This document shows positions 3,301 through 47,001 of a DNA stretch of 53,923 nt, piece after piece; the stretch's first letter is position 1, and each line of letters starts with the position of its first letter. The position numbers and the translations under genes were made by a program. The DNA comes from a virus. A model generated the notes under the pieces. The model did no database searches, was not told the origin of the DNA, and saw only the letters and a list, made by a program, of their open reading frames with translations. The stretch is from positions 1-53,923 of IMG/VR virus record IMGVR_UViG_3300041809_000086. One strand, written 5' to 3'.

Positions 3301-4032
3301 ATGAGCTATACGCCCCCGGCCCATAATGCCGTCGATTTCGTGCTGTCGCCGGGCTACACCGCGCCGACGCATACGCTTGTCAATTTCGATCTTGGCGAGA
3401 ACATTCCCGCGTCGCTGGTCGAAGGCTTCGACATCGTTGTCGCATCGGCGCATAAGTTCTTAGCGGTCAGCGGCGCGATTAGCGAAAATTCCGACATTGT
3501 CGTCGCTGTTGCGGTTGCGTTCCCGCCGACGATTGCGCACGTTCTGGAATCGTTTGACATTGTCGTCGCTGTTGCGGTTGCGTTCCCGCCGACGATTGCG
3601 CACGTTCTGGAATCGTTTGACACGGTCGTCGCATATGCCGGGGTCGTGTTCCCGGACAATTCCAAGTACGGCCGCGCGGGCGCTGCGCCAAACGGTTCGC
3701 CGATTCCTAAGCCTACTTCCATGCTGATGCGCTCGCGTGATGACGGGCGATTGTCAGAGGCGTGGTGGAAATATATCAACAGTTTCAGCCAACAGCCGCC
3801 GGGCGAAATTCGCGTCACACTGGCAAAATCGCCATATGCATACAAGGCTACTCGCAACGGAACGCTACTGGTCAGCGGCGCGACAGTGTCAGCCATGACT
3901 ATCAATTCCCGCAATTCCGGGGCGGTTCGTCTGCTGGGACTGACGCAAGGAATGATCCCGGTCAGCATCGGGGACGTGGTCACGATCACCTACGCCGGGG
4001 CCGTGCCGCTGGTCGTCTTCTTTCCGCGTTGA
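3301..4032 (+). CDS. Structural protein with perfect 21-residue internal repeat
   Basis: This 243-residue protein has a repetitive N-terminal half: units of 21 residues beginning DIVVAVAVAFPPT occur twice identically at DNA level, with degenerate versions before and after. The C-terminal half is different (DDGRLSEAWWKYINSF, then a beta-rich ending VTITYAGAVPLVVFFPR) and resembles small C-terminal domains of phage tail proteins. It follows the previous gene with a two-base gap, as in an operon. A tail function is inferred from neighbours only. Confidence 0.65.
   Translation: MSYTPPAHNAVDFVLSPGYTAPTHTLVNFDLGENIPASLVEGFDIVVASAHKFLAVSGAISENSDIVVAVAVAFPPTIAHVLESFDIVVAVAVAFPPTIAHVLESFDTVVAYAGVVFPDNSKYGRAGAAPNGSPIPKPTSMLMRSRDDGRLSEAWWKYINSFSQQPPGEIRVTLAKSPYAYKATRNGTLLVSGATVSAMTINSRNSGAVRLLGLTQGMIPVSIGDVVTITYAGAVPLVVFFPR
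3493..3618 (+). repeat. Two perfect 63-bp tandem repeats inside a structural gene
   Basis: The 63-bp unit at 3493-3555 is repeated without a mismatch at 3556-3618, keeping the reading frame and duplicating 21 residues. A third, diverged unit starts at 3619 (GACACGGTCGTC). Absence of even synonymous change suggests a recent duplication or slippage. Confidence 0.9.
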
Positions 4033-4130: not shown

Positions 4131-4340
4131 ATGATTTCGTTACTAATTCTAGCCTGCTACATGGCCTTCTGCATCGCGATTCTGAAGCGCCATCGAGCGG
4201 AAAAGCGCGCCGGAAAGAACGGATACGGATTGCTGCTTCTGATGTTGTTCGTATGCCCGGTCATTCTGTCGCTGATCGCGATCGCATTCGCCCCATCGGC
4301 CGCGACAAAATCACGTAAGGACTTAGGATATTCGTCATGA
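4131..4340 (+). CDS. Small membrane protein, disrupted downstream by the repeat-flanked insertion
   Basis: This 69-residue protein has an N-terminal hydrophobic segment (ISLLILACYMAFCIAI), a basic loop (KRHRAEKRAGK) and a second hydrophobic segment (LLLLMLFVCPVILSLIAIAF), so two membrane passes are likely. Its final 19 codons lie in the 82-bp direct repeat at 4282-4363; the same C-terminal codons reappear at 5052-5110. It ends with an ATGA overlap with the next start. The position near lysis and tail genes fits a small inner-membrane protein, but no specific holin or spanin family is recognised. Confidence 0.65.
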   Translation: MISLLILACYMAFCIAILKRHRAEKRAGKNGYGLLLLMLFVCPVILSLIAIAFAPSAATKSRKDLGYSS

Positions 4341-4363
4341 ACACCGACCTCGACATCTTCGCG
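4282..4363. repeat. 82-bp perfect direct repeat, left copy
   Basis: These 82 bases are identical to 5052-5133, a period of 770 bp. The repeat spans the end of the small membrane-protein gene and the first nine codons of the next gene (MNTDLDIFA). The two copies bracket 688 bp (4364-5051) with different codon preference. The bases just outside the match differ on both sides. Confidence 0.97.
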
Positions 4364-4588
4364 CAGCACCCGGCCGCCTACTACGAGAGCGGCTCCAAGA
4401 TGTTCATCGGCACGCACCCGAGCACCGGGCGCGTCGCCTCGTACTTCGCTGCTGGTCTAGTTGCCCAGGTCGTCATCACCGACCTCCTGCCGCACCCGTG
4501 GCGCAACGCATGGCAAGCGATGGGCATCGCCCTGGAGGCCGACTGCGTAGGACACAACGCAAGCCTGGGCGTCAAGTTCTCGTTCTGA
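4337..4588 (+). CDS. Chimeric small protein: native 9-residue N-terminus fused to foreign C-terminus
   Basis: This 83-residue protein begins MNTDLDIFA, encoded in the left 82-bp repeat, then continues into cassette DNA as QHPAAYYESGSKMFIG and a C-terminal segment with AAGLVAQVVITDLLP, HPWRNAWQ and LGVKFSF. The cassette part uses GAG, AAG, AGC and CTG codons, unlike neighbouring phage genes, which favour GAA and TTG. The original start of the foreign gene is missing, so its N-terminus may be replaced. The C-terminal part looks like a small phage membrane-associated protein. Function is unknown. Confidence 0.55.
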   Translation: MNTDLDIFAQHPAAYYESGSKMFIGTHPSTGRVASYFAAGLVAQVVITDLLPHPWRNAWQAMGIALEADCVGHNASLGVKFSF

Positions 4589-4614
4589 TCCAGTCAACCA
4601 CAAGGAGATACACC

Positions 4615-4809
4615 ATGGTCAAGACCAAGGGAGCAATGCCAGCCGCTGTGCGCCGCACACCAGACGGCGGGTACCTGCAGTTGTTCGTCGACTTCGAGGC
4701 GCTGCTCGACGACCTGGGCGCCAAGGCCCGCAAGTCCAAGCGCCATCGCGCGGTCGTGCGCTTCGGCGCCATCGCCTGCAAGTTCATCCAACCCAAGAGG
4801 TTCGCATGA
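4615..4809 (+). CDS. Small basic protein in foreign cassette
   Basis: This 64-residue protein is preceded by AAGGAG seven bases before the ATG, one of the strongest Shine-Dalgarno sites in the window. It is basic at both ends (MVKTKGAMPAAVRR, KARKSKRHR) with an acidic centre (FVDFEALLDDLG). It lies wholly inside the 688-bp repeat-flanked cassette and overlaps the next start by four bases. No family is recognised. The codon bias (GAG, CTG, AAG) matches the rest of the cassette. Confidence 0.6.
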   Translation: MVKTKGAMPAAVRRTPDGGYLQLFVDFEALLDDLGAKARKSKRHRAVVRFGAIACKFIQPKRFA

Positions 4810-5027
4810 GTCGCGTAAGAGTCTGCACCGACCCAGCGTGGACGCCGACGTCCGAGAACATCAACGGCCTGCCCGAGCCAATCAGAGACTACATACATGC
4901 ACTGGAGACTCGGTGCGATCCATCTGGACTGGTGCTGGAAAACGCGATGGCCCGCGACCTATGTCGCCAACTTGAGGCGACGTTCCTGGCTCTTAAAGCG
5001 CGAATTAAAGAACTGGAGACGACATGA
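4806..5027 (+). CDS. Small coiled-coil protein in foreign cassette
   Basis: This 73-residue protein starts in an ATGA overlap with the previous gene. The N-terminus is neutral (MSRVRVCTDPAWTP) and the C-terminal 25 residues form a likely amphipathic helix or short coiled coil (RQLEATFLALKARIKEL). It lies wholly between the 82-bp repeats and shares the cassette codon bias. It overlaps the next start by four bases, so the cassette is a compact translationally coupled unit. Function is unknown. Confidence 0.6.
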   Translation: MSRVRVCTDPAWTPTSENINGLPEPIRDYIHALETRCDPSGLVLENAMARDLCRQLEATFLALKARIKELETT

Positions 5028-5110
5028 GAACCCGCTTCTACGTCCACCACGTCGCATTCGCCCCATCGGCCGCGACAAAATCACGTAAGGACTTAGGATA
5101 TTCGTCATGA
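5024..5110 (+). CDS. Chimeric 28-residue ORF at the right cassette junction
   Basis: The frame begins MRTRFYVHHV in cassette DNA and passes in frame into the right 82-bp repeat, where it encodes the same C-terminus (AFAPSAATKSRKDLGYSS) as the small membrane protein at 4131-4340. It is best read as the start of a foreign gene truncated by the junction and fused to the tail of a native gene. Whether a stable product is made is doubtful. Confidence 0.4.
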   Translation: MRTRFYVHHVAFAPSAATKSRKDLGYSS

Positions 5111-5133
5111 ACACCGACCTCGACATCTTCGCG
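5052..5133. repeat. 82-bp perfect direct repeat, right copy
   Basis: This copy is identical to 4282-4363. Removing one copy plus the intervening 688 bp would rebuild two intact, overlapping native genes (4131 type and 5107 type), which supports an insertion into a pre-existing gene pair. Confidence 0.97.
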
Positions 5134-5280
5134 GCGGCCCTAGCAACGGGGCTTGTGCTGAACGACATCGCCGACGCTGAATTTGAAGCGGCACAAATCG
5201 AGCGCCGCGAGCGCCGCCGCGCCCAACCCTTCGACCCGGATCGCGGCACGTCGCCGACCGAGTCTGATGACCTAGTATGA
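5107..5280 (+). CDS. Small hypothetical protein (native reading after the insertion)
   Basis: This 57-residue protein starts inside the right repeat (MNTDLDIFA) and continues with AALATGLVLNDIADAEFEAAQIERRERRRAQ-type sequence, a helical, charged, arginine-rich C-terminal half. It is probably the undisturbed form of the gene whose first nine codons are also used at 4337. The preceding frame ends in an ATGA overlap and the following gene begins in its stop codon, the packing typical of this phage. Function is unknown. Confidence 0.65.
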   Translation: MNTDLDIFAAALATGLVLNDIADAEFEAAQIERRERRRAQPFDPDRGTSPTESDDLV

Positions 5281-15944: not shown

Positions 15945-17141
15945 CTATCCTTTGACGCATAGTACCGCCTTCAAGGTCGCGATGACATCGACTAGATCGC
16001 GCTGCGCTTTCATGACGGCGTCTATACTTTTGTAAGCCCCTGGAATTTCGTCCAATACACCAGCATCTTTTCTGCATTCGACTCCCGCAGTTTGGGCCTC
16101 GAGATCGTCAAGCGTGAATTGGCGTTTGGCTTGGGTTCGGGACATGACACGTCCCGCACCGTGCGAACAAGAACAATACGACGATTCGTTCCCTCGGCCC
16201 TGGACGATATAAGATCGCGTACCCATCGAACCGGGAATGATACCCAATTGTCCGGCCCGCGCCTCAACCGCGCCCTTGCGCGTAATCCAAATGTTCCGCC
16301 CATAATGCGACTCCATTTGCGTGAAATTGTGATGACAGTTTACATGCGTCTCGGTTAGTTGGAACTTTGGCAAATGGCGCTCCATCGCGCCGATGACCAG
16401 TTCCATCATGACATCGCGGTTCAGCGCGGCGTAATCTTGCGCCCAATGCATAGCTTCGATGTACGCTTCAAACTCGGGCGTGCCTTCGGGCAACCATCCT
16501 AGATCGCGCTGCGGAATCTCGACGCCGCGCGTGACCATCAGTTCCCGCGCTTGCGTGATCGCCAAGTTCCCGATCTTGTTCCCGACGTTGCGCGATCCCG
16601 AATGCAGCATGATCCAAACCCGATCGTCCGTGTCGAGACAGATTTCGATGAAGTGGTTCCCGCCCCCGAGCGTGCCGACTTGTTCCCAAACTTTCGCGTG
16701 GCTTAGGTCACAAAGATTCATCAAGATTTTCAGCGCGTCAAAGCGAACACGCAAATCCTGCAAGCGCCGAACCAAACGCTTGTCGTATTTCGACGCGCGG
16801 TTGATCGTGTCTTCCGGGTCTTTGTGCTGATTGAAGCCGACCGGAACGTCGCGCTCGATCTGAGCTCGGATGGTCGCCAACGATTCAGGCAAGTCCGTGG
16901 CCCGCAGCGTGGTCCGGACGGCGGCCATGCCGCAGCCGATATCGACGCCGACCGCGCTCGGGATGACCGCGCCTTCGGTTGGAATCACCGACCCGACGCA
17001 TGCGCCGACGCCCATATGAACGTCGGGCATCACCGCGATATGGCCCGCAAGGATGGGCAGTTGCGCAACGTCCGCAAGTTGCTTCAATGCGGCTTCCTCG
17101 ATCGGCATGTCGCCGGTCCACGTCCGAATCATGTCGTTCAT
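15945..17141 (-). CDS. rtcB: RtcB-type RNA ligase
   Basis: RtcB joins RNA 3'-phosphate or 2',3'-cyclic-phosphate ends to 5'-hydroxyl ends using GTP and Mn2+. This 398-residue protein is full length and carries the conserved sites: PDVHMGVG (39-46), VGVDIGCGM with Asp67 and Cys70, GGGNHFIE with His163, LHSGSRN with His180, NCHHNF (269-273) and HGAGR with His327, the residue that is guanylylated in the family. The C-terminus DEIPGAYKSID..LCVKG is also typical. No archease gene is seen nearby. In phages such ligases may repair host-inflicted tRNA or mRNA breaks; that use here is inferred. Confidence 0.93.
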   Translation of the reverse strand: MNDMIRTWTGDMPIEEAALKQLADVAQLPILAGHIAVMPDVHMGVGACVGSVIPTEGAVIPSAVGVDIGCGMAAVRTTLRATDLPESLATIRAQIERDVPVGFNQHKDPEDTINRASKYDKRLVRRLQDLRVRFDALKILMNLCDLSHAKVWEQVGTLGGGNHFIEICLDTDDRVWIMLHSGSRNVGNKIGNLAITQARELMVTRGVEIPQRDLGWLPEGTPEFEAYIEAMHWAQDYAALNRDVMMELVIGAMERHLPKFQLTETHVNCHHNFTQMESHYGRNIWITRKGAVEARAGQLGIIPGSMGTRSYIVQGRGNESSYCSCSHGAGRVMSRTQAKRQFTLDDLEAQTAGVECRKDAGVLDEIPGAYKSIDAVMKAQRDLVDVIATLKAVLCVKG

Positions 17142-18024: not shown

Positions 18025-18169
18025 ATACGCCCCTTTTAAGGTTGACGTTGCTAATTGTTGCTTGCGAAACGCCGTGCGCGATGGCGAGATACGTTTGTTT
18101 GACGCCGAGCGCAAGATCGCGGCGGATTTGCGCGACTACGCGGGCGGATAGTTTGCGGCGGCGTTTCAT
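17807..18169 (-). CDS. Small HTH DNA-binding protein
   Basis: Residues 1-50 (MKRRRKLSARVVAQIRRDL, then LGVKQTYLAIAHGVSQATISNV) form a basic arm and a helix-turn-helix of the resolvase/MarR-like kind. Codon pattern is strong in this first part. From about residue 52 onward the sequence is G/P-rich and weakly coding, and another frame takes over, so the true protein may be the first 50 residues plus a short tail. It starts in an ATGA overlap with the polymerase gene end. Confidence 0.6.
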   Translation of the reverse strand: MKRRRKLSARVVAQIRRDLALGVKQTYLAIAHGVSQATISNVNLKRGVYANENDAGEDIGNPDGQPGPIPTAMGGADNAGSAAQSTVDLDGLGLWPRCPVARAPGFCGLDTRRHAIRTNG

Positions 18170-19920
18170 ACCACCACCCCCAAATCCCGAATCATGCCGA
18201 CCGCGTCGGCCGCATATCGCGAATAGTCGATGTCGTCCGGCACCGCGAACCCTTCCGGCAGTTCCATCAGCGGCCGACAGCCGTCCGACGCGGCGACCTT
18301 GTTCCCGTTCGTCCGGTACAGGATCGGCGCCCCGCTAGTCGCGTAATACCATCGCACCGCGCGCCCAAGGAGCTGGCCGCACCATTCGCCGCCGCCCTTG
18401 ACCTTGCGGATATGGACGAACTTGCGCACATCCTGGCAAGCCTTGATGGTCGTCATGACGGGCGTCCCGGCTTTCATGTATGCGACGACCGCGTCGATGC
18501 AGACTTCGCCGCTCGGGTTGGGCCAGCTTGTTGCGACCGGCACCGGGCGGGCGTAGGCTCCCTTCAACTTGATTGTCCCGTCGGTCTTCATGGCGACATA
18601 GTTGTTCACGTCGCGCGACGCTATCCATGCGTAATCGGCCGCTTCCGTTTCGAACCCGGTTAGCTTGCACCACCATGCGACGACTTGATCGCGCAACCAT
18701 GTCATATCCTTGCGACACTTGATGACGATCCCGTCCGTGTTCGCCGAGACGACGCCGATCCCCGAGATTTCCAACATTTCGATCAGCATCAGCAGCGCGA
18801 GTTGACCCGTCACCGTGACTTGTATCCCGCCGGTCGGATCGTAGAAGATCGACCATTTCGACAACAGTTTGCCGAACACGCCGTTCAAAAAGGTCTTCAA
18901 ACTGTCCGCGTCCTTCTTGTTGCCCGCAGCCTTGGCCGCCAAGCGCCGCGTGTAAACGCTCTGATAGATCGACACGAACTGCGCCCCGATCGCGGGCGGG
19001 ACAATGCCGGTCTTCAAGATTAGCGTCGGATAGTAGGACGCGACATCGACATCTTGCAGAACAAAGGTGTCATCGGCCAGATGCACTTGATTCTGTTCCG
19101 AGCTATGCAGGCCGCCGATACCCATACGGTACACCGACCGGCCGATACGAATCTGATGGCCGCCCAACTCGACGGGCATGTCAACGCCCCCGGCGAAGGT
19201 CGTTTTGAACACCGATCGAGAAAGTAGATCAAGGATGTTCAAATTCTGAAATGCCAGCCATGCGGGCGGTCGATAATAGAACGCGGTCCCCGGCGAGACA
19301 ACCTGACGATTCTTGACGCCGGTCAACTTTTTCATGATCGATTCGGCGATCTGCGGGTCGGACTTGCTGCGAAGATCCATGTCGTACTCGGCGGACATCT
19401 GGACGCGCAAGGCGATCTGCGACGGGAAGGTGTTGAAAAGGTCGCGTGTGGTCGCCAAGTCGTTCCCGCAATACTCGCGCAGGGCGCCCCGCATGTCGGG
19501 CGTGATCGACTCGCTTGGGTCGATCGGCAAATCCTGCAACTTGCGCGAATGCATCTTGCCGCCGTATTCCTTCAAGCTGGTCCGGCCCGGCGCGATTTCG
19601 ATCATGTCGATATGGTCGAAATCGGGCGTTTCAAGATTCCATCGGGAATAGAATTCCCAAGGCTGCAAATTCATGCCGATGATTTCGTCGCAGGCTTGTT
19701 TCAATTGCGCATTGTTCGCCCCGGCCAGCGCGGCGGCGATCAAGGGCATGTCGAAATGGTTCCCGTTGAACGTAACGATAAGATCGGAAGACATTGCCGC
19801 ATGTAATTCTGCGATGTCCATCGGCTGACCGGGGAACATTTCGATATCTTGGATCGGATTGTCCAGTTTCACAAGAAAGTAATCCTTGTAAACTTCAATG
19901 TCCATCATTCGGGCTTGCAT
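18166..19920 (-). CDS. DNA polymerase, family B, compact, with 3'-5' exonuclease
   Basis: This 584-residue protein is short for family B. Exonuclease motifs are DIE (7-9, Exo I), FNGNHFD (51-57, Exo II) and YCGND (150-154, Exo III). Polymerase motif A is DVASYYPTL with Asp292, motif B is LKTFLNGVFG (341-350), and motif C is ANTDGI with Asp396. Motif C has Asn394 where most family-B enzymes have the first Asp of DTD; the essential second Asp is kept. GGAG is eight bases before the ATG. It overlaps the IbrA-like gene by 16 bases. It is probably the replicative polymerase. Confidence 0.88.
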   Translation of the reverse strand: MQARMMDIEVYKDYFLVKLDNPIQDIEMFPGQPMDIAELHAAMSSDLIVTFNGNHFDMPLIAAALAGANNAQLKQACDEIIGMNLQPWEFYSRWNLETPDFDHIDMIEIAPGRTSLKEYGGKMHSRKLQDLPIDPSESITPDMRGALREYCGNDLATTRDLFNTFPSQIALRVQMSAEYDMDLRSKSDPQIAESIMKKLTGVKNRQVVSPGTAFYYRPPAWLAFQNLNILDLLSRSVFKTTFAGGVDMPVELGGHQIRIGRSVYRMGIGGLHSSEQNQVHLADDTFVLQDVDVASYYPTLILKTGIVPPAIGAQFVSIYQSVYTRRLAAKAAGNKKDADSLKTFLNGVFGKLLSKWSIFYDPTGGIQVTVTGQLALLMLIEMLEISGIGVVSANTDGIVIKCRKDMTWLRDQVVAWWCKLTGFETEAADYAWIASRDVNNYVAMKTDGTIKLKGAYARPVPVATSWPNPSGEVCIDAVVAYMKAGTPVMTTIKACQDVRKFVHIRKVKGGGEWCGQLLGRAVRWYYATSGAPILYRTNGNKVAASDGCRPLMELPEGFAVPDDIDYSRYAADAVGMIRDLGVVV

Positions 19921-21101
19921 TTTTTCATCTCCAAATATTTGCCGTACGCCTCACTTTTCGGCTGAGTCAATCCTAAACCTTTACACCAATGATCGTTACG
20001 TAGCAATACCTTGCACATGCGTCGCCAGCTTGGTGCCCAATGCGCGTCTTCGAGGATCTTCGGAACTTCATCAGGAATCGTCGAATAGCCGCGCGTGCGC
20101 CATCCTTTTATGAACGATCGAAAGCGGCCCATATAATGACTGCGAGTCTTCGCCGGTAACGATTGCAACAGCAGATTGCAGAAACTCTGCCACGTATGAC
20201 CTTCGGGTTTCGTTATCTTGTTGTATCCGGTGATATTGCCGCGCTCCTGAATGTATACCGCTCCGGAGTTGGCGCCGTTGACTCGCGCTATCAGCTTGAA
20301 CCATGTCTGCGGTTCGAGAATGTGATAAAGCCATAGGCCCTTGCGCTGATCGTCTCCGTAAGGCTGGCATAATCGCTGCTGACTAATCGAGACTCCGGCC
20401 TTATGCATCTGATCGTAAATTCTGTTGTGGGGCAAATGGGGATAGTGCGCGTAGAATCGCCAAATGTCCTCCGTGCGCCAATCGTAGATTGGGTAAACAT
20501 AGTAAACCTGGTCTTCGATTCGCGTCGTGTACCGTTTTCCATCGCACATCTCCTTATCCCAAATAGCGATGGTTCGAAACCGATTCAGACTTTCGTCCGC
20601 GCGAATTCCGATACATCCTGCCGTTAGCGCGCCTCTCCCATACCATGCGCCGAACAGAATGATGAATTCCTCAAACTCCATACCGGGAACGAACCACGGA
20701 AGATCCTTGGCTGTCTTGGCGCACTTAGGCATGTCGCGCACCCATAACTCGCGCTTCGATTCGTCCCAACACATCCAGCGAGGCTCAAAATTAGTTACAG
20801 CATTGCGCAGTAACAAAGGCACACAGCACCACCATAGATCAATGTGCTCGGCGTACATCTCGACCATTTCATGCAGATGATCTATCGTCGCGGCGTATTG
20901 GGCTTCCAGGTCGATAATTAGCACGCCTACCTTGCGGCCGCGCCGGATAGCTTCTTCCATGACAAGGTGCAGGAGTACGCCGCTGTCCTTTCCTCCGCTG
21001 AACGACACATAGACTCGTTCGAAGTTGTCGAAGGTAAACCTAATGCGCTCACGAGCGGCAGTGAGTACGTCTGCGTCTTGATACTTTTTGAGTGTCGGCA
21101 T
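19905..21101 (-). CDS. PAPS-reductase-family protein, IbrA-like (DUF3440 type)
   Basis: This 398-residue protein has an N-type ATP-pyrophosphatase loop SGGKDSG (35-41), GIRADESLNR (165-174) and YPIYDWRTEDIW (203-214), the signature of phosphoadenylylsulfate-reductase-like PP-loop enzymes of the IbrA group. A conserved aromatic C-terminal half follows. True sulfate assimilation is unlikely in a phage; related proteins act with a ParB-like partner. That partner, IbrB-like, is encoded directly upstream with a TGACATG junction. The biochemical reaction of this family is not established. Confidence 0.85.
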   Translation of the reverse strand: MPTLKKYQDADVLTAARERIRFTFDNFERVYVSFSGGKDSGVLLHLVMEEAIRRGRKVGVLIIDLEAQYAATIDHLHEMVEMYAEHIDLWWCCVPLLLRNAVTNFEPRWMCWDESKRELWVRDMPKCAKTAKDLPWFVPGMEFEEFIILFGAWYGRGALTAGCIGIRADESLNRFRTIAIWDKEMCDGKRYTTRIEDQVYYVYPIYDWRTEDIWRFYAHYPHLPHNRIYDQMHKAGVSISQQRLCQPYGDDQRKGLWLYHILEPQTWFKLIARVNGANSGAVYIQERGNITGYNKITKPEGHTWQSFCNLLLQSLPAKTRSHYMGRFRSFIKGWRTRGYSTIPDEVPKILEDAHWAPSWRRMCKVLLRNDHWCKGLGLTQPKSEAYGKYLEMKKCKPE

Positions 21102-21102
21102 G

Positions 21103-22185
21103 TCAGTAAAGGTTCGCTTCAGTTTTGGATTGGGCGTCGGCCATGGTCAACGACGCTCGTCCGTTGACTACTAGCCACGCATTCAATGCTCGCAGCGCGG
21201 CCTCATTCGCGGCATTTTGCTCGTCCGGCGTCAGAAGATTGAATCCTCCCCGATAGATCGACGGGATTCCTTTGGCGATACATAGCGACGCTTGACCGAG
21301 CCACGCGATGCGGTTCATACGCTCGTTCGTCAAGTAGTGCTCGCAACTTTTCGTCCATTCCGTGACAACGCGCACGAGTGCCGCTTCGAACGCCGGTATA
21401 TCGCGTAGTAGTTCGCAATATGCGGCCTCGCATTGATCTTTAGTCTTGTCGTGCGCAGTTTCATAGAACCCCGCGCGGTAACATTCCCATTGATCCCAAG
21501 TGTGCAAGATTCGGCCGGGCTCTAGCACAACAGGTTCGCCATCAGTGTCTTGAAGAGGTACAAAATCGTCCGACGCATCTTCGATATCCCAAGATTTCGA
21601 GAATTCCTGATCCGCGAACAATTCGGACAGCCCGCTAATCTGGCATAGACGTAGAACCTCATCGGGTTCCATGCCGAGATTCGACGCGATTTTATTGTCC
21701 GACCAGTTGCGCCGTTTCAGTTCGATCACAATGTCCGACATGGCGTCTACGCGATGTTTTCCTCGCGCCCGATTGTGGCGGATCGTGGCGGCCATACGGT
21801 CAGCCTTGTCATAGCGCGATTCGTTGATGCGGACGGTCGGCAAGTATCCCTTAATCCGCGCGGCAATAGTAGGATCTTCTTTTCCGATGCGGTGACGGTG
21901 AAAACCGTCGATTACCTCGCGCTTGCCGTCGGCATCGGGCATCGTTACTATCGGCTGCGTATATCCGTCCGCGTCGATCGACACCCGAAGTAATTCCATC
22001 TCGGGCGGCGCGACCGAGTTGGGGTTGTAATCGTTTTGGTATACCGATTCGGCCGGAACCCACTCGACGAAATCCACTGGCTCATCGCGGAAAGGAGACT
22101 TCGCGTGAACGGCCGCCCGAATCGCGTTGATAGTTTCGACACTAGGATTGTCCAGCGCGGTTATCAATTCGATGATCTTTTGCAT
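21103..22185 (-). CDS. ParB/IbrB-like protein
   Basis: The ATG at 22185 (GAGGA five to nine bases upstream) gives 360 residues; an upstream TTG is less likely. The N-terminal domain has VEWVPAESVYQNDYNPNSVAPPEMELL-type sequence (39-66), DGYTQPIV (73-80) and DGFHRHR (93-99), matching ParB/sulfiredoxin-fold domains of IbrB-like proteins; an HTH-like segment (WSDNKIASNLGMEPDEVLRL) follows. The C-terminal 150 residues contain TWDQWECYRAGFYET and IAWLGQASLCIAKGIPSIYRGGF. It probably forms a functional pair with the PAPS-reductase-like protein. Confidence 0.85.
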   Translation of the reverse strand: MQKIIELITALDNPSVETINAIRAAVHAKSPFRDEPVDFVEWVPAESVYQNDYNPNSVAPPEMELLRVSIDADGYTQPIVTMPDADGKREVIDGFHRHRIGKEDPTIAARIKGYLPTVRINESRYDKADRMAATIRHNRARGKHRVDAMSDIVIELKRRNWSDNKIASNLGMEPDEVLRLCQISGLSELFADQEFSKSWDIEDASDDFVPLQDTDGEPVVLEPGRILHTWDQWECYRAGFYETAHDKTKDQCEAAYCELLRDIPAFEAALVRVVTEWTKSCEHYLTNERMNRIAWLGQASLCIAKGIPSIYRGGFNLLTPDEQNAANEAALRALNAWLVVNGRASLTMADAQSKTEANLY

Positions 22186-22194
22186 TTTCTTCCT

Positions 22195-22220
22195 CAAAAA
22201 GACCGCCCCCGAAGGGGCGG
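22195..22220 (-). terminator. Intrinsic terminator with TTCG loop, leftward
   Basis: On the minus strand, CCGCCCC, TTCG and GGGGCGG form a seven-pair stem closed by a stable tetraloop, followed by TCTTTTT. It stands between the ssDNA-binding gene and the ParB-like gene, so it should reduce transcription into ParB, IbrA and polymerase relative to the genes before it. Confidence 0.85.
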
Positions 22221-22230
22221 CCGTGTTGCG

Positions 22231-23142
22231 TCAGGCTAGGTAGCCGTTTTGCTTCATGGTGTCCAGCGTCCAACCTCCCGCTAGGAAGGCTTCAAGCGTG
22301 ACGCCTGTCGCCAAGCCCTTGGCGGACAACTGCGGACCAGCCGGGGGTGGCGGGGCAGCAGCAGGCACCGGGGCAGCAGGAAGGCCCAAAATCGCCGCGT
22401 TGGGCGCGGCACCGACGGCAGGCGGTACGAATGCACCGGCCAGCGGGGGCGGGGCTTGGAAGCCCGTTGCGGGCGCGGGAGCGCCCATTGCGCCGATCGG
22501 GGTCAAGCTGGCCCCGGGCGGCAAGACGACGCCCTTTCCAAAACCGACGGTCTTGACATCAACGCCGTGGACGATCCGTTCGCCGTTGGCAACCTTCGCG
22601 ACCGCGACCGGGTTCAGATAGACACCCGGCTTGCTCGACGAAGCGTTTCCCTTGCAGTTGACGACGACTTGGACATAGTCGCCCAAGTTGATGTCGGCCG
22701 CCGGAACCGGAAGCGTCCCGTCGATGTTGCAAGTCTGAATCGGCGATTGATCCTCGAAGGTCATGACGGCCATGTTCAAAATCCAGTTTCCCGGATAGCC
22801 TTCGCGGCTCGCGTTCGTCTTGCCCTTCAAGTTCGGAATGACGCTGTCGCCGTCTTCGATCTTCCAACTGAACGACGGGTTTTGCGCCAGCGGGCCGAAT
22901 GCGGATTGGCCGACTTGCAAGACCTTCGCGCCGTATTCGGTTTGGTACCATGCGGACGTGCCGTTCTTCGGTACTGCGACGGCGATATAGAACTTAAACA
23001 TCGGTTTGCCCTGCCCTGCGCCGGTCTTGCCGACTAGGGGCTTGCCGTCCGCGTCTTTCGTTTGCGATTTCGTTAGCGATCCGCCGACCAGACGGCCGAC
23101 GGGGTTTGCGGGGGTTAAAAATTGAACTGTGTCGTTTGCCAT
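22231..23142 (-). CDS. Probable single-stranded-DNA-binding protein (DUF2815-like) with Pro/Ala tail
   Basis: This 303-residue protein has an N-terminal domain of about 200 residues that looks beta-rich (FKFYIAVAVPKNG, REGYPGNWILNMAV, LGDYVQVVVNCKG, KPGVYLNPVAVAKV), as in phage OB-fold ssDNA-binding proteins. The remaining 100 residues are a Pro/Ala/Gly linker with an end AGGWTLDTMKQNGYLA. GGAG precedes the start. The next gene upstream is a PD-(D/E)XK nuclease, a frequent partner. The OB-fold assignment is by pattern only. Confidence 0.55.
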   Translation of the reverse strand: MANDTVQFLTPANPVGRLVGGSLTKSQTKDADGKPLVGKTGAGQGKPMFKFYIAVAVPKNGTSAWYQTEYGAKVLQVGQSAFGPLAQNPSFSWKIEDGDSVIPNLKGKTNASREGYPGNWILNMAVMTFEDQSPIQTCNIDGTLPVPAADINLGDYVQVVVNCKGNASSSKPGVYLNPVAVAKVANGERIVHGVDVKTVGFGKGVVLPPGASLTPIGAMGAPAPATGFQAPPPLAGAFVPPAVGAAPNAAILGLPAAPVPAAAPPPPAGPQLSAKGLATGVTLEAFLAGGWTLDTMKQNGYLA

Positions 23143-27267: not shown

Positions 27268-27912
27268 ATGAAGATCGAAATCAAATTCAGATTTACCCCC
27301 GACATTTTGTTTTCTATAGAGGCCGATAGTATTAAGATCGCGCTTGAATCTGCTGTAAGCGTGCAAACGAACCTGCGCGGCGCGGGCCTGCGCAACGCGG
27401 ACCTGCGCGGCGCGAACCTGCGCGGCGCGAACCTGCGCGGCGCGGACCTGGACGGCGCGGGCCTGCGCAACGCGGACCTGCGCGGCGCGAACCTGCGCGG
27501 CGCGAACCTGCGCGGCGCGAACCTGGACGACGCGGACCTGGACGGCGCGGACCTGCGCGGCGCGGGCCTGCGCAACGCGGACCTGCGCGGCGCGAACCTG
27601 CGCGGCGCGAACCTGCGCGGCGCGAACCTGGACGACGCGGACCTGGACGACGCGGACCTGGACGGCGCGGACCTGCGCGGCGCGGGCCTGCGCGGCGAAA
27701 AATTGAAAAAAACACCATTGGTAGTTCTTAATTTACAATGGGACGTGTTGATTACTGACTCGTACATGACTATAGGTTGTCAGCGTCACACACATTCATC
27801 GTGGAACAATTTCGATGAATCGTCAATTCGAAAAATGCATCCGGACGCGTTCGATTTTTGGAAAACATGGCGATCCGCGTTGCTGTCCCTATGTGAAGGA
27901 CATTCCAAATGA
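27268..27912 (+). CDS. Pentapeptide-repeat protein
   Basis: This 214-residue protein has 22 consecutive pentapeptides (residues 34-143) of the type A(N/D/G)L(R/D)(G/D/N), expected to form a right-handed four-sided helix. The first 33 residues and the last 70 (PLVVLNLQWDVLITDSYMTIGC, then DAFDFWKTWRSALL) are not repetitive. Some pentapeptide proteins mimic DNA and protect or inhibit gyrase; no such role is shown here. The repeat DNA is markedly GC-rich compared with both flanks and contains duplicated blocks. The end overlaps the TetR-like gene by four bases. Confidence 0.9.
   Translation: MKIEIKFRFTPDILFSIEADSIKIALESAVSVQTNLRGAGLRNADLRGANLRGANLRGADLDGAGLRNADLRGANLRGANLRGANLDDADLDGADLRGAGLRNADLRGANLRGANLRGANLDDADLDDADLDGADLRGAGLRGEKLKKTPLVVLNLQWDVLITDSYMTIGCQRHTHSSWNNFDESSIRKMHPDAFDFWKTWRSALLSLCEGHSK
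27454..27645 (+). repeat. Near-identical 105-bp-period repeats in the pentapeptide array
   Basis: A block starting at 27454 (GGCGCGGGCCTGCGC...) recurs at 27559 with an offset of 105 bases, that is seven pentapeptide codon sets, and is identical for nearly the whole unit. Within the block CGCGGCGCGAACCTG recurs three times in tandem. This is the clearest low-complexity DNA of the window and could expand or contract by slippage. Confidence 0.85.
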
Positions 27913-29778: not shown

Positions 29779-29862
29779 GATGGTCCCCTTGAATTGGAAG
29801 CGCGGGCGGCGGTTTAGCCTTTGATCGTTGGCCGTCAGGCCATGCGGAACCCGCGCAGGAGC

Positions 29863-30132
29863 CTATTCTACCACCTTTAGCTTGAACACGCTCCGCTCGG
29901 AACGGAGGGACATGCGGCGGCCGACGACGCCGGCCGCATCATCCGGGTCCGGAAAGAATTGGACGCACGGCCAGCTACACTTCCCGGCGGCCATCATCCG
30001 GGCCTTAAATTCGGGCGTGCAATCGATGCAGGCGAAGTCGAGGACGCCGGGCCGCTCAGTATGCGCGGCGCGTAGCCATTCCCGCCAATCTTCGACCGGA
30101 AAGCAATCCGGTCGCGCCCTTGGATCACGCAT
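29863..30132 (-). CDS. Small cysteine-containing protein, possible zinc-binding
   Basis: The ATG at 30132 gives 89 residues with ACIDCTPEFKARMMAAGKC and WPCVQF: paired cysteines (CxxC and CxxxC) in a spacing found in small phage proteins of the CxDCTPxxxxxMxxAGxC type. A zinc site is plausible. The start overlaps the end of the phosphoesterase gene by eight bases, so the two are coupled. Confidence 0.6.
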   Translation of the reverse strand: MRDPRARPDCFPVEDWREWLRAAHTERPGVLDFACIDCTPEFKARMMAAGKCSWPCVQFFPDPDDAAGVVGRRMSLRSERSVFKLKVVE

Positions 30133-44853: not shown

Positions 44854-47001
44854 ATGGCCGAAGACACCCGAACCGACGAAATGGCATCGCCCGAAACCGG
44901 GCAAGACGATGTCTGCGCCGAAGCGATTCGGTTCCTGCGCAAGTCGGCCGACTACGATTCGACGAATCGGCAGAACGCGCTCGATGATCTGCGGTTCAGC
45001 TACGGCGAGCAATGGTCCGCGCAGATGCAGAACACGCGCCACCTTGAAGCGCGGCCGTGGTTCACGATCAATGTCACCGAGGCGTTCGTCCGTCAGGTTT
45101 GCAATCAGCAGCGCCAACAGCGCCCGCGCATGAAGGCGCATGGCGTCAACACGGCGGCCAATGCCAAGCAGGCCGAAATCGTCACCGGGTTGACGCGCCA
45201 TATCGAAGAACTGTCGGACGCCGCGAACGCATACGATACTGCGTTCGAATTCGCCTGCCGTATGGGTTGGGGATACATCAGGCTTGACGGCGACTATGCC
45301 GACGACAAGTCGATGGATCAGGAAATCTTCATTCGCACCGTTGACAATCCGTTCTCGGTGTACTTCGATCACAATTCGCACGCGCTTGATGGGTCCGACG
45401 CGACGAAATGCATTATCACGGACCTTGTTGATAAGAACGAATTCTTGCACGAATTCCCCGGCGCGGATCTATCCGCGTTCAGCCTGCGCGCCGCCGGCGA
45501 CGCGATGGGCGAATGGAACGACAAGAACAATATTCGGATCGCCGAGTACTATCGCATTGACAAACAGCGGGCAAGGCTCGTTCAATTGTCCGATGGCTCG
45601 ACGCATTGGGACGACGAACTGCCCGCGCCCGCTGTCCTGCAAAACATGCAGTTGAAAGTAAAGGGCGATCGCCTGTCATGGAAGCGCCGCGTTCTCTGGT
45701 CGAAGATCACCGGGACACAAGAACTGGACTCGCGCGTCATCCCCGGTTGCTATATCCCCGTCGTGCCGGTGTACTTCGCAAATCTGTTCATCGACGGCCG
45801 CACGCGCCGGTTTGGGATCGTCCGCAATGCCAAAGATCCGCAGCGTATGCTGAACTATTGGGATACCGCGATCGCCGAACTGGTCGCGCTAGCCCCGAAG
45901 GCGAAATGGCTAGTTGCCGAAGGCCAAGTCCAAGGTCATGAGCGTGAATGGGAACGCGCGAACACGGTTTCATATCCGTACCTGACTTATGTCCCGATTC
46001 TCGGACCAGACGGCCAGCCCGTTCCGCCGCCCGAGCGTTTGCCCATCGAACAGCCGCCGGAAGGGGCCATGGCCGCCGCACAGAACGCACACGACAACTT
46101 GCAGCGCGTGCTGGGCATGTTCGACCCATCGATGACCCGGCCCGGCCAAGCGAGCGGGAAGGCGTTGAACGCCGAGCAACAGCAAAACGACATGTCGAAC
46201 TATCACGGCTATGACAACCTGACGAAGTCGATCAAGCACGTCGGGCGAATCATCATGTCGTGGATTCCGATCTATTACGGCGAAAAGCGCGTTCAGCGCA
46301 TCATCGGCGTCGATGGTAAGCCCGACATCTTGACGCTGAATCTTGCCGATGAAACCGGCGTCGTGGCTAACGATATGACGCTCGGACGTTACGACGTGAT
46401 AATGGAGACGGGTCCAGGATTCAACAGCCGTCGCCAAGAGGCCGTCGAAGCGTTGACGCCGCTAATGGCCGACGGTCGCAATGGACTGATGCAGACAGCG
46501 GGCGATCTGTTCTTCCGGAACATGGATTTCCCCGGCGCCGACATCATCGCCGACCGTCTCGCGGCCGTGAACCCGTTGTCGCAGATCGACGAAAAGTCGG
46601 ACGTTCCGCCCGCGATCCAAATGAAGATTCAGCAGTTGACGCAGAACGTGCAGCAGTTGACGCAGCAACTCCAATCCGCACACTTGCTCTTGAAGAATCG
46701 CGCCGATGTCGAAGGCATGAAGGAAGCCGCCGCATCGCACCGTGAGACGATCAAGCAGGATGCCGAAACCGATCGCAAGAAGATGGATGTCGAGGCTTGG
46801 GTCCACGAAATCAGCATGAAGGCGCAGACGGCGACGAATGTCGAGGAATTGAAGGGCGTCGTCGCGTTGCTGGTCAAGGGCATCGACACGAAACATCTTC
46901 ACATTCAAGCCGCGCTTGATGACGCAATGGCGGAACGCCAAAGCGAGCGCGACATCGCACAGATTCAGGCAACACCGAAACCCGCTGCGGGCGCAGCGTA
47001 A
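44854..47001 (+). CDS. Portal protein, P22-like
   Basis: The ATG at 44854 gives 715 residues. Portal rings form the DNA entry channel of the capsid. The sequence NARDDLRF-type head (RQNALDDLRFSYGEQWS), QICNQQRQQRPRMKAHG-type region, RHIEELSDAANAYDTAFEFACRMGWGY and DNPFSVYFDHNS follow the P22 gp1 family pattern, and the C-terminal 180 residues are helical (QIQQLTQNVQQLTQQLQ-type) as in its barrel. Size is as in P22 (725). It is followed by the scaffold gene. Confidence 0.88.
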   Translation: MAEDTRTDEMASPETGQDDVCAEAIRFLRKSADYDSTNRQNALDDLRFSYGEQWSAQMQNTRHLEARPWFTINVTEAFVRQVCNQQRQQRPRMKAHGVNTAANAKQAEIVTGLTRHIEELSDAANAYDTAFEFACRMGWGYIRLDGDYADDKSMDQEIFIRTVDNPFSVYFDHNSHALDGSDATKCIITDLVDKNEFLHEFPGADLSAFSLRAAGDAMGEWNDKNNIRIAEYYRIDKQRARLVQLSDGSTHWDDELPAPAVLQNMQLKVKGDRLSWKRRVLWSKITGTQELDSRVIPGCYIPVVPVYFANLFIDGRTRRFGIVRNAKDPQRMLNYWDTAIAELVALAPKAKWLVAEGQVQGHEREWERANTVSYPYLTYVPILGPDGQPVPPPERLPIEQPPEGAMAAAQNAHDNLQRVLGMFDPSMTRPGQASGKALNAEQQQNDMSNYHGYDNLTKSIKHVGRIIMSWIPIYYGEKRVQRIIGVDGKPDILTLNLADETGVVANDMTLGRYDVIMETGPGFNSRRQEAVEALTPLMADGRNGLMQTAGDLFFRNMDFPGADIIADRLAAVNPLSQIDEKSDVPPAIQMKIQQLTQNVQQLTQQLQSAHLLLKNRADVEGMKEAAASHRETIKQDAETDRKKMDVEAWVHEISMKAQTATNVEELKGVVALLVKGIDTKHLHIQAALDDAMAERQSERDIAQIQATPKPAAGAA

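Follow-up and report, generated by a model that had tools for sequence, protein, structure and literature searches.

A probable capture of putatively foreign DNA between 82-bp direct repeats at an overlapping gene pair of a P22-like podovirus

We analyzed a 53.9-kb virus record of IMG/VR over its full length (53,923 bp; hereafter, the window). The record represents a P22-like podovirus known solely via environmental DNA, in which the P22 portal, the P22 coat protein and the large terminase subunit are recognisable, and which also has genes for a DNA polymerase and for a Gp2.5-like single-stranded DNA annealing protein. At the locus described here, two small native genes, each complete in the present arrangement, are separated by a direct repeat and 688 bp of apparently foreign DNA carrying the open reading frames (ORFs) c1 to c4:

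4131-4340, + strand: native gene 1, a complete gene for a small hydrophobic protein of 69 aa; codon 51 onward lies in repeat copy 1
4282-4363, + strand: direct repeat copy 1 (82 bp), containing the 3′ end of gene 1 and the start signal and 9 codons of gene 2
4337-4588, + strand: c1, a fusion ORF in which the duplicated gene 2 start contributes 9 residues and putatively foreign sequence the following 74
4364-5051, + strand: putatively foreign insert (688 bp), recognised by its dinucleotide signature and the flanking repeats
4602-4607, + strand: AAGGAG, predicted from sequence as the ribosome-binding site of c2
4615-4809, + strand: c2, a complete, putatively foreign ORF of 64 aa; no relative found
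4806-5027, + strand: c3, a complete, putatively foreign ORF of 73 aa containing a domain with the motif W-x-P-T-x-x-N-[IV]-N-x-L-P
5024-5110, + strand: c4 stub, approximately 10 first codons of a putatively foreign gene followed by the duplicated end of gene 1
5052-5133, + strand: direct repeat copy 2 (82 bp); position 5118 differs in a sibling contig
5107-5280, + strand: native gene 2, complete, 57 aa; its first 9 codons lie within repeat copy 2

The two repeat copies are identical over 82 bp and are spaced 770 bp apart, enclosing 688 bp, as the first-pass annotation of this DNA had reported; the probability of such an identity arising by chance within 54 kb is effectively zero. The repeated segment extends from codon 51 of gene 1 to its stop codon and includes the start signal and the first 9 codons of gene 2. 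Removal of the insert and one repeat copy in silico left native genes 1 and 2 intact and overlapping as ATGA, which bears out the earlier claim that such a deletion rebuilds an overlapping native pair. The annotated in-frame fusions are present as well, with ORFs of 83 aa (4337-4588) and 28 aa (5024-5110) crossing the two inner junctions. The insert thus fuses foreign gene fragments to duplicated native ends, and neither native gene is disrupted.

The same insert and both repeats were found in a sibling contig of 30,945 bp from metagenome 3300014165, which aligns colinearly, free of indels, with positions 144-31088 of the window and differs from it at 16 bases. The repeat copies of the sibling differ from each other at one base, matching position 5118 in copy 2, such that exact identity extends over only 66 bp there. 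A further difference lies just beyond copy 2, at 5142, and both substitutions are silent in gene 2. The two assemblies are likely to be independent. Differences between the window and sibling contigs are nearly all confined to five short tracts (1215-1218, 5118-5142, 22624-22648, 29860-29953 and 45240-45255) rather than scattered, as if recombination had brought them in or strains had been mixed.

The protein sequence of c1 is similar to 94-aa proteins encoded by four viral contigs (32-33% identity over 72-76 aa, E values of ~1e-7 to 1e-9), with the similarity beginning at the first foreign residues and reaching the end of c1. Three aligned relatives have MDPFLIAVALTMVDYGQTRT-like hydrophobic N-termini followed by DYGQTR, both of which c1 lacks; in place of this whole stretch, c1 carries MNTDLDIFA, which derives from the duplicated gene 2 start, and the borrowed start codon overlaps the gene 1 stop. 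Judged from these alignments, c1 belongs, in truncated form, to a small family of phage proteins, of which few, 33%-identical members are known. Since phages belonging to the same broader group carry these c1 relatives, the word foreign may overstate how distant the donor is. Downstream, the AAGGAG site noted in the first-pass annotation is present seven bases ahead of the c2 ATG; searches with the c2 protein yielded no relatives. The short motif domain of c3 occurs also in Achromobacter phages Axy12 and Axy24, Cupriavidus plasmids and unrelated viral contigs, in proteins that are otherwise different. A genome search with the c3 alignment recovered two loci, and among 399 genomes of the order that includes Cupriavidus, only the already known c3 plasmid was detected; the same genomes contained no member of the c1 family, an uninformative answer. 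Of c4, approximately 10 codons are left ahead of repeat copy 2, and a degenerate DNA pattern for this start matched only the sibling contig. The insert therefore reads as an arbitrary fragment that ends wherever it was cut, inside genes on both sides, rather than as a built cassette.

The dinucleotide signature of the insert is atypical, with only 4 of 519 windows of the same size being as extreme or more so (top 1%), all four of them in one stretch near 47 kb, whereas its GC content is unremarkable (62% versus 59%). The codon bias described previously holds in part: GAG is preferred over GAA (8:2 in the insert versus 141:376, P = 0.0009) and CTG over TTG (12:1 versus 272:242, P = 0.004), but AAG preference did not differ, and the whole-codon score is ordinary, with 23% of native blocks scoring equally low. 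By its dinucleotide signature, though not by its overall codon usage, the insert is foreign, in agreement with the origin originally proposed.

Searches of phage and viral collections revealed neither an empty-site relative or contig nor a donor of the insert, and the locus, used as a nucleotide query against the phage collection, returned no match. When the window's own record was left out, the exact 82-mer was found in IMG/VR in the sibling contig only. Thus, among the relatives searched for alleles with and without the insert, the sibling has it and no empty allele was found. The closest relative with conserved synteny, whose portal shares 57% identity, carries a different cargo gene between the corresponding neighbours, and the insertion locus is therefore variable. 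Because no empty-site relative was found, the direction of change is read from the anatomy of the locus, from which we infer gain rather than loss. Since an insert between direct repeats of this length should be prone to loss, its presence in two contigs suggests that it is either recent or useful.

We consider it probable that non-homologous recombination captured a piece of foreign phage DNA, 688 bp long, and, in doing so, duplicated 82 bp of the target. The capture was probably coupled to replication. At 4363, the growing strand would have switched from the native to a foreign template, followed it for 688 bp and re-entered the native template 82 bp upstream, at 4282, such that 82 bases were copied twice. 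In a variant of this scheme, a fragment would be ligated into a break with 82-base overhangs that were then filled, leaving an identical scar. The DNA polymerase and the Gp2.5-like annealing protein of the phage are plausible agents. Where genes 1 and 2 overlap, any blunt insertion would interrupt at least one of the two, whereas a duplication covering the overlap and the gene 2 start signal spares both; selection would thus explain why a duplication of this length survived. The duplicated gene 2 start would, at the same time, have supplied the truncated c1 with its new start codon overlapping the gene 1 stop.

An assembly artefact, in which unrelated sequences were joined via an 82-base word, had been raised in the first-pass annotation and would be conceivable for the window and its sibling, both being metagenome-derived virus contigs. 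However, the sibling, which departs from the window at 16 positions in 31 kb, shows the same arrangement, and its copies are identical over 66 bp only, which makes this alternative unlikely; moreover, re-entry into native sequence would require the foreign molecule to have been a 770-bp circle or tandem. Assemblers do not usually use 82 as a word length, and 82 bases is shorter than typical reads. A contrasting case is contig L112 (4909-5351), where an exact repeat of precisely 127 bp reaches the contig end and is probably an assembler word-length artefact. A small mobile element with a long target duplication (a transposon, or a MITE-like, MPME-like or integron cassette element) is very improbable. 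The 688-bp size and the flanking duplication resemble such an element, and ultra-small elements, of 439 bp, have been described in phages (PMC3029335), but no inverted pair was found at the two insert ends, no insert protein matched a recombinase, transposase or integrase, integron integrases included, in Pfam or PHROG (as the first-pass annotation had stated for transposases), the ends lie inside genes, and no second copy occurs in any collection searched. Scans for Rfam families, tRNAs and defence families also gave no match. Being cut inside genes and devoid of recombination signals or enzymes, the insert bears little resemblance to a unit evolved for mobility; of the recombination-driven cassette suggested earlier, a recombination origin is our probable reading, but the term cassette claims too much.

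Homologous recombination, of the Campbell type or double, offers a further alternative, in which a donor such as a circle or a related phage already carried the 82-bp segment beside the foreign genes and a crossover in the shared segment placed the insert between the copies. The final structure is indeed that of single-crossover integration via an 82-bp homology. We nevertheless regard this route as rather unlikely, because the foreign DNA would have to have held the gene 1/gene 2 junction of this very phage, the exact 82-mer being confined to the sibling contig as described above, and because the truncation of foreign genes at both ends is not explained by the model. A broader reading, to which we attach very little probability, is that the long duplication is no accident and that small gene fragments are time and again taken up and lost by the phage where gene pairs overlap, in a process driven by the annealing protein and leaving self-made excision repeats; if so, inserts would be trial genes removable without a scar. 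Across ~1.2 Mb of retrieved sequence, some of it redundant, long dispersed repeats were seen to enclose no further insert, leaving aside repeat arrays and one contig-end repeat, and the process therefore does not look habitual in these phages.

Non-homologous capture of a fragment, our preferred reading, is in keeping with the mosaicism of phage genomes, which is widely ascribed to illegitimate recombination and, as a second contributor, to homeologous recombination (PMC2327257, PMC3029335). As in phage morons and illegitimate mosaicism (PMC3029335, PMC2327257), foreign DNA lies between genes that would otherwise be neighbours, its composition differs from that of its surroundings (4/519 windows) and no recombination signal is seen at the joint. 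For morons, the flanking genes are expected to be adjacent in a relative; here, joining the flanks restores the overlapping pair, with no empty-site relative found. Morons typically consist of an ORF with its own promoter and terminator, whereas in this insert the end genes are cut, scans for sigma-70 promoter-like sites and + strand terminator-like sites found neither (on the coding strand), although c2 and c3 are complete, and an 82-bp duplication is present. The insert therefore behaves as an illegitimate, moron-type gene gain, and we file it as an illegitimate insertion rather than as a classical moron. Template-switch events of the FoSTeS/MMBIR type (PMC2621351) would be similar in that DNA is copied from elsewhere, a nearby duplication lies at the joint and the template is left and then re-entered; they have been described for cellular chromosomes, whereas this case would involve a phage and a foreign template. 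The mycobacteriophage mobile elements MPME1 and MPME2 (PMC3029335) are likewise very small inserts in phage genomes, but they recur with identical sequence, bear inverted repeats and insert with 6 added bp, and the present insert shows none of these traits; transposons, too, are defined by inverted repeats together with a transposase or recurrence elsewhere, which were not found here. In the open-access literature, we found no description of a phage insert flanked by so long a target duplication, which is no proof of absence.

The locus introduces no new type of element; it exemplifies the usual mosaicism of phages, except that the scar is uncommonly legible. Whereas the joints of phage mosaics are mostly old and no longer legible, this one still shows where the insert begins and ends, which target segment was duplicated and why the insertion was probably tolerated. 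It provides a concrete case of non-homologous gene gain passing selection in overlapping phage genes and of truncated genes acquiring new starts.

Several other features of the window were recorded. An RtcB RNA ligase is encoded at 15945-17141 (- strand; Pfam E value 1.7e-125). Within 18166-22197 (- strand), the gene for a PAPS-reductase-like protein with DUF3440 (19905-21101) is adjoined by a ParB-like gene (21103-22197) and the DNA polymerase gene (18166-19920). An array of 15-bp repeats at 27308-27757 encodes a pentapeptide-repeat-like protein (ADLRGANLRGAN), and tail-protein paralogues with common repeats ~980 bp apart are arranged in tandem at 1-2761. Finally, the gene at 3301-4032 contains an exact in-frame tandem duplication at 3493-3622 (63-bp unit, 67-bp match), which is present in the sibling contig as well and is apparently a second recent duplication, ~660 bp upstream of the insert.
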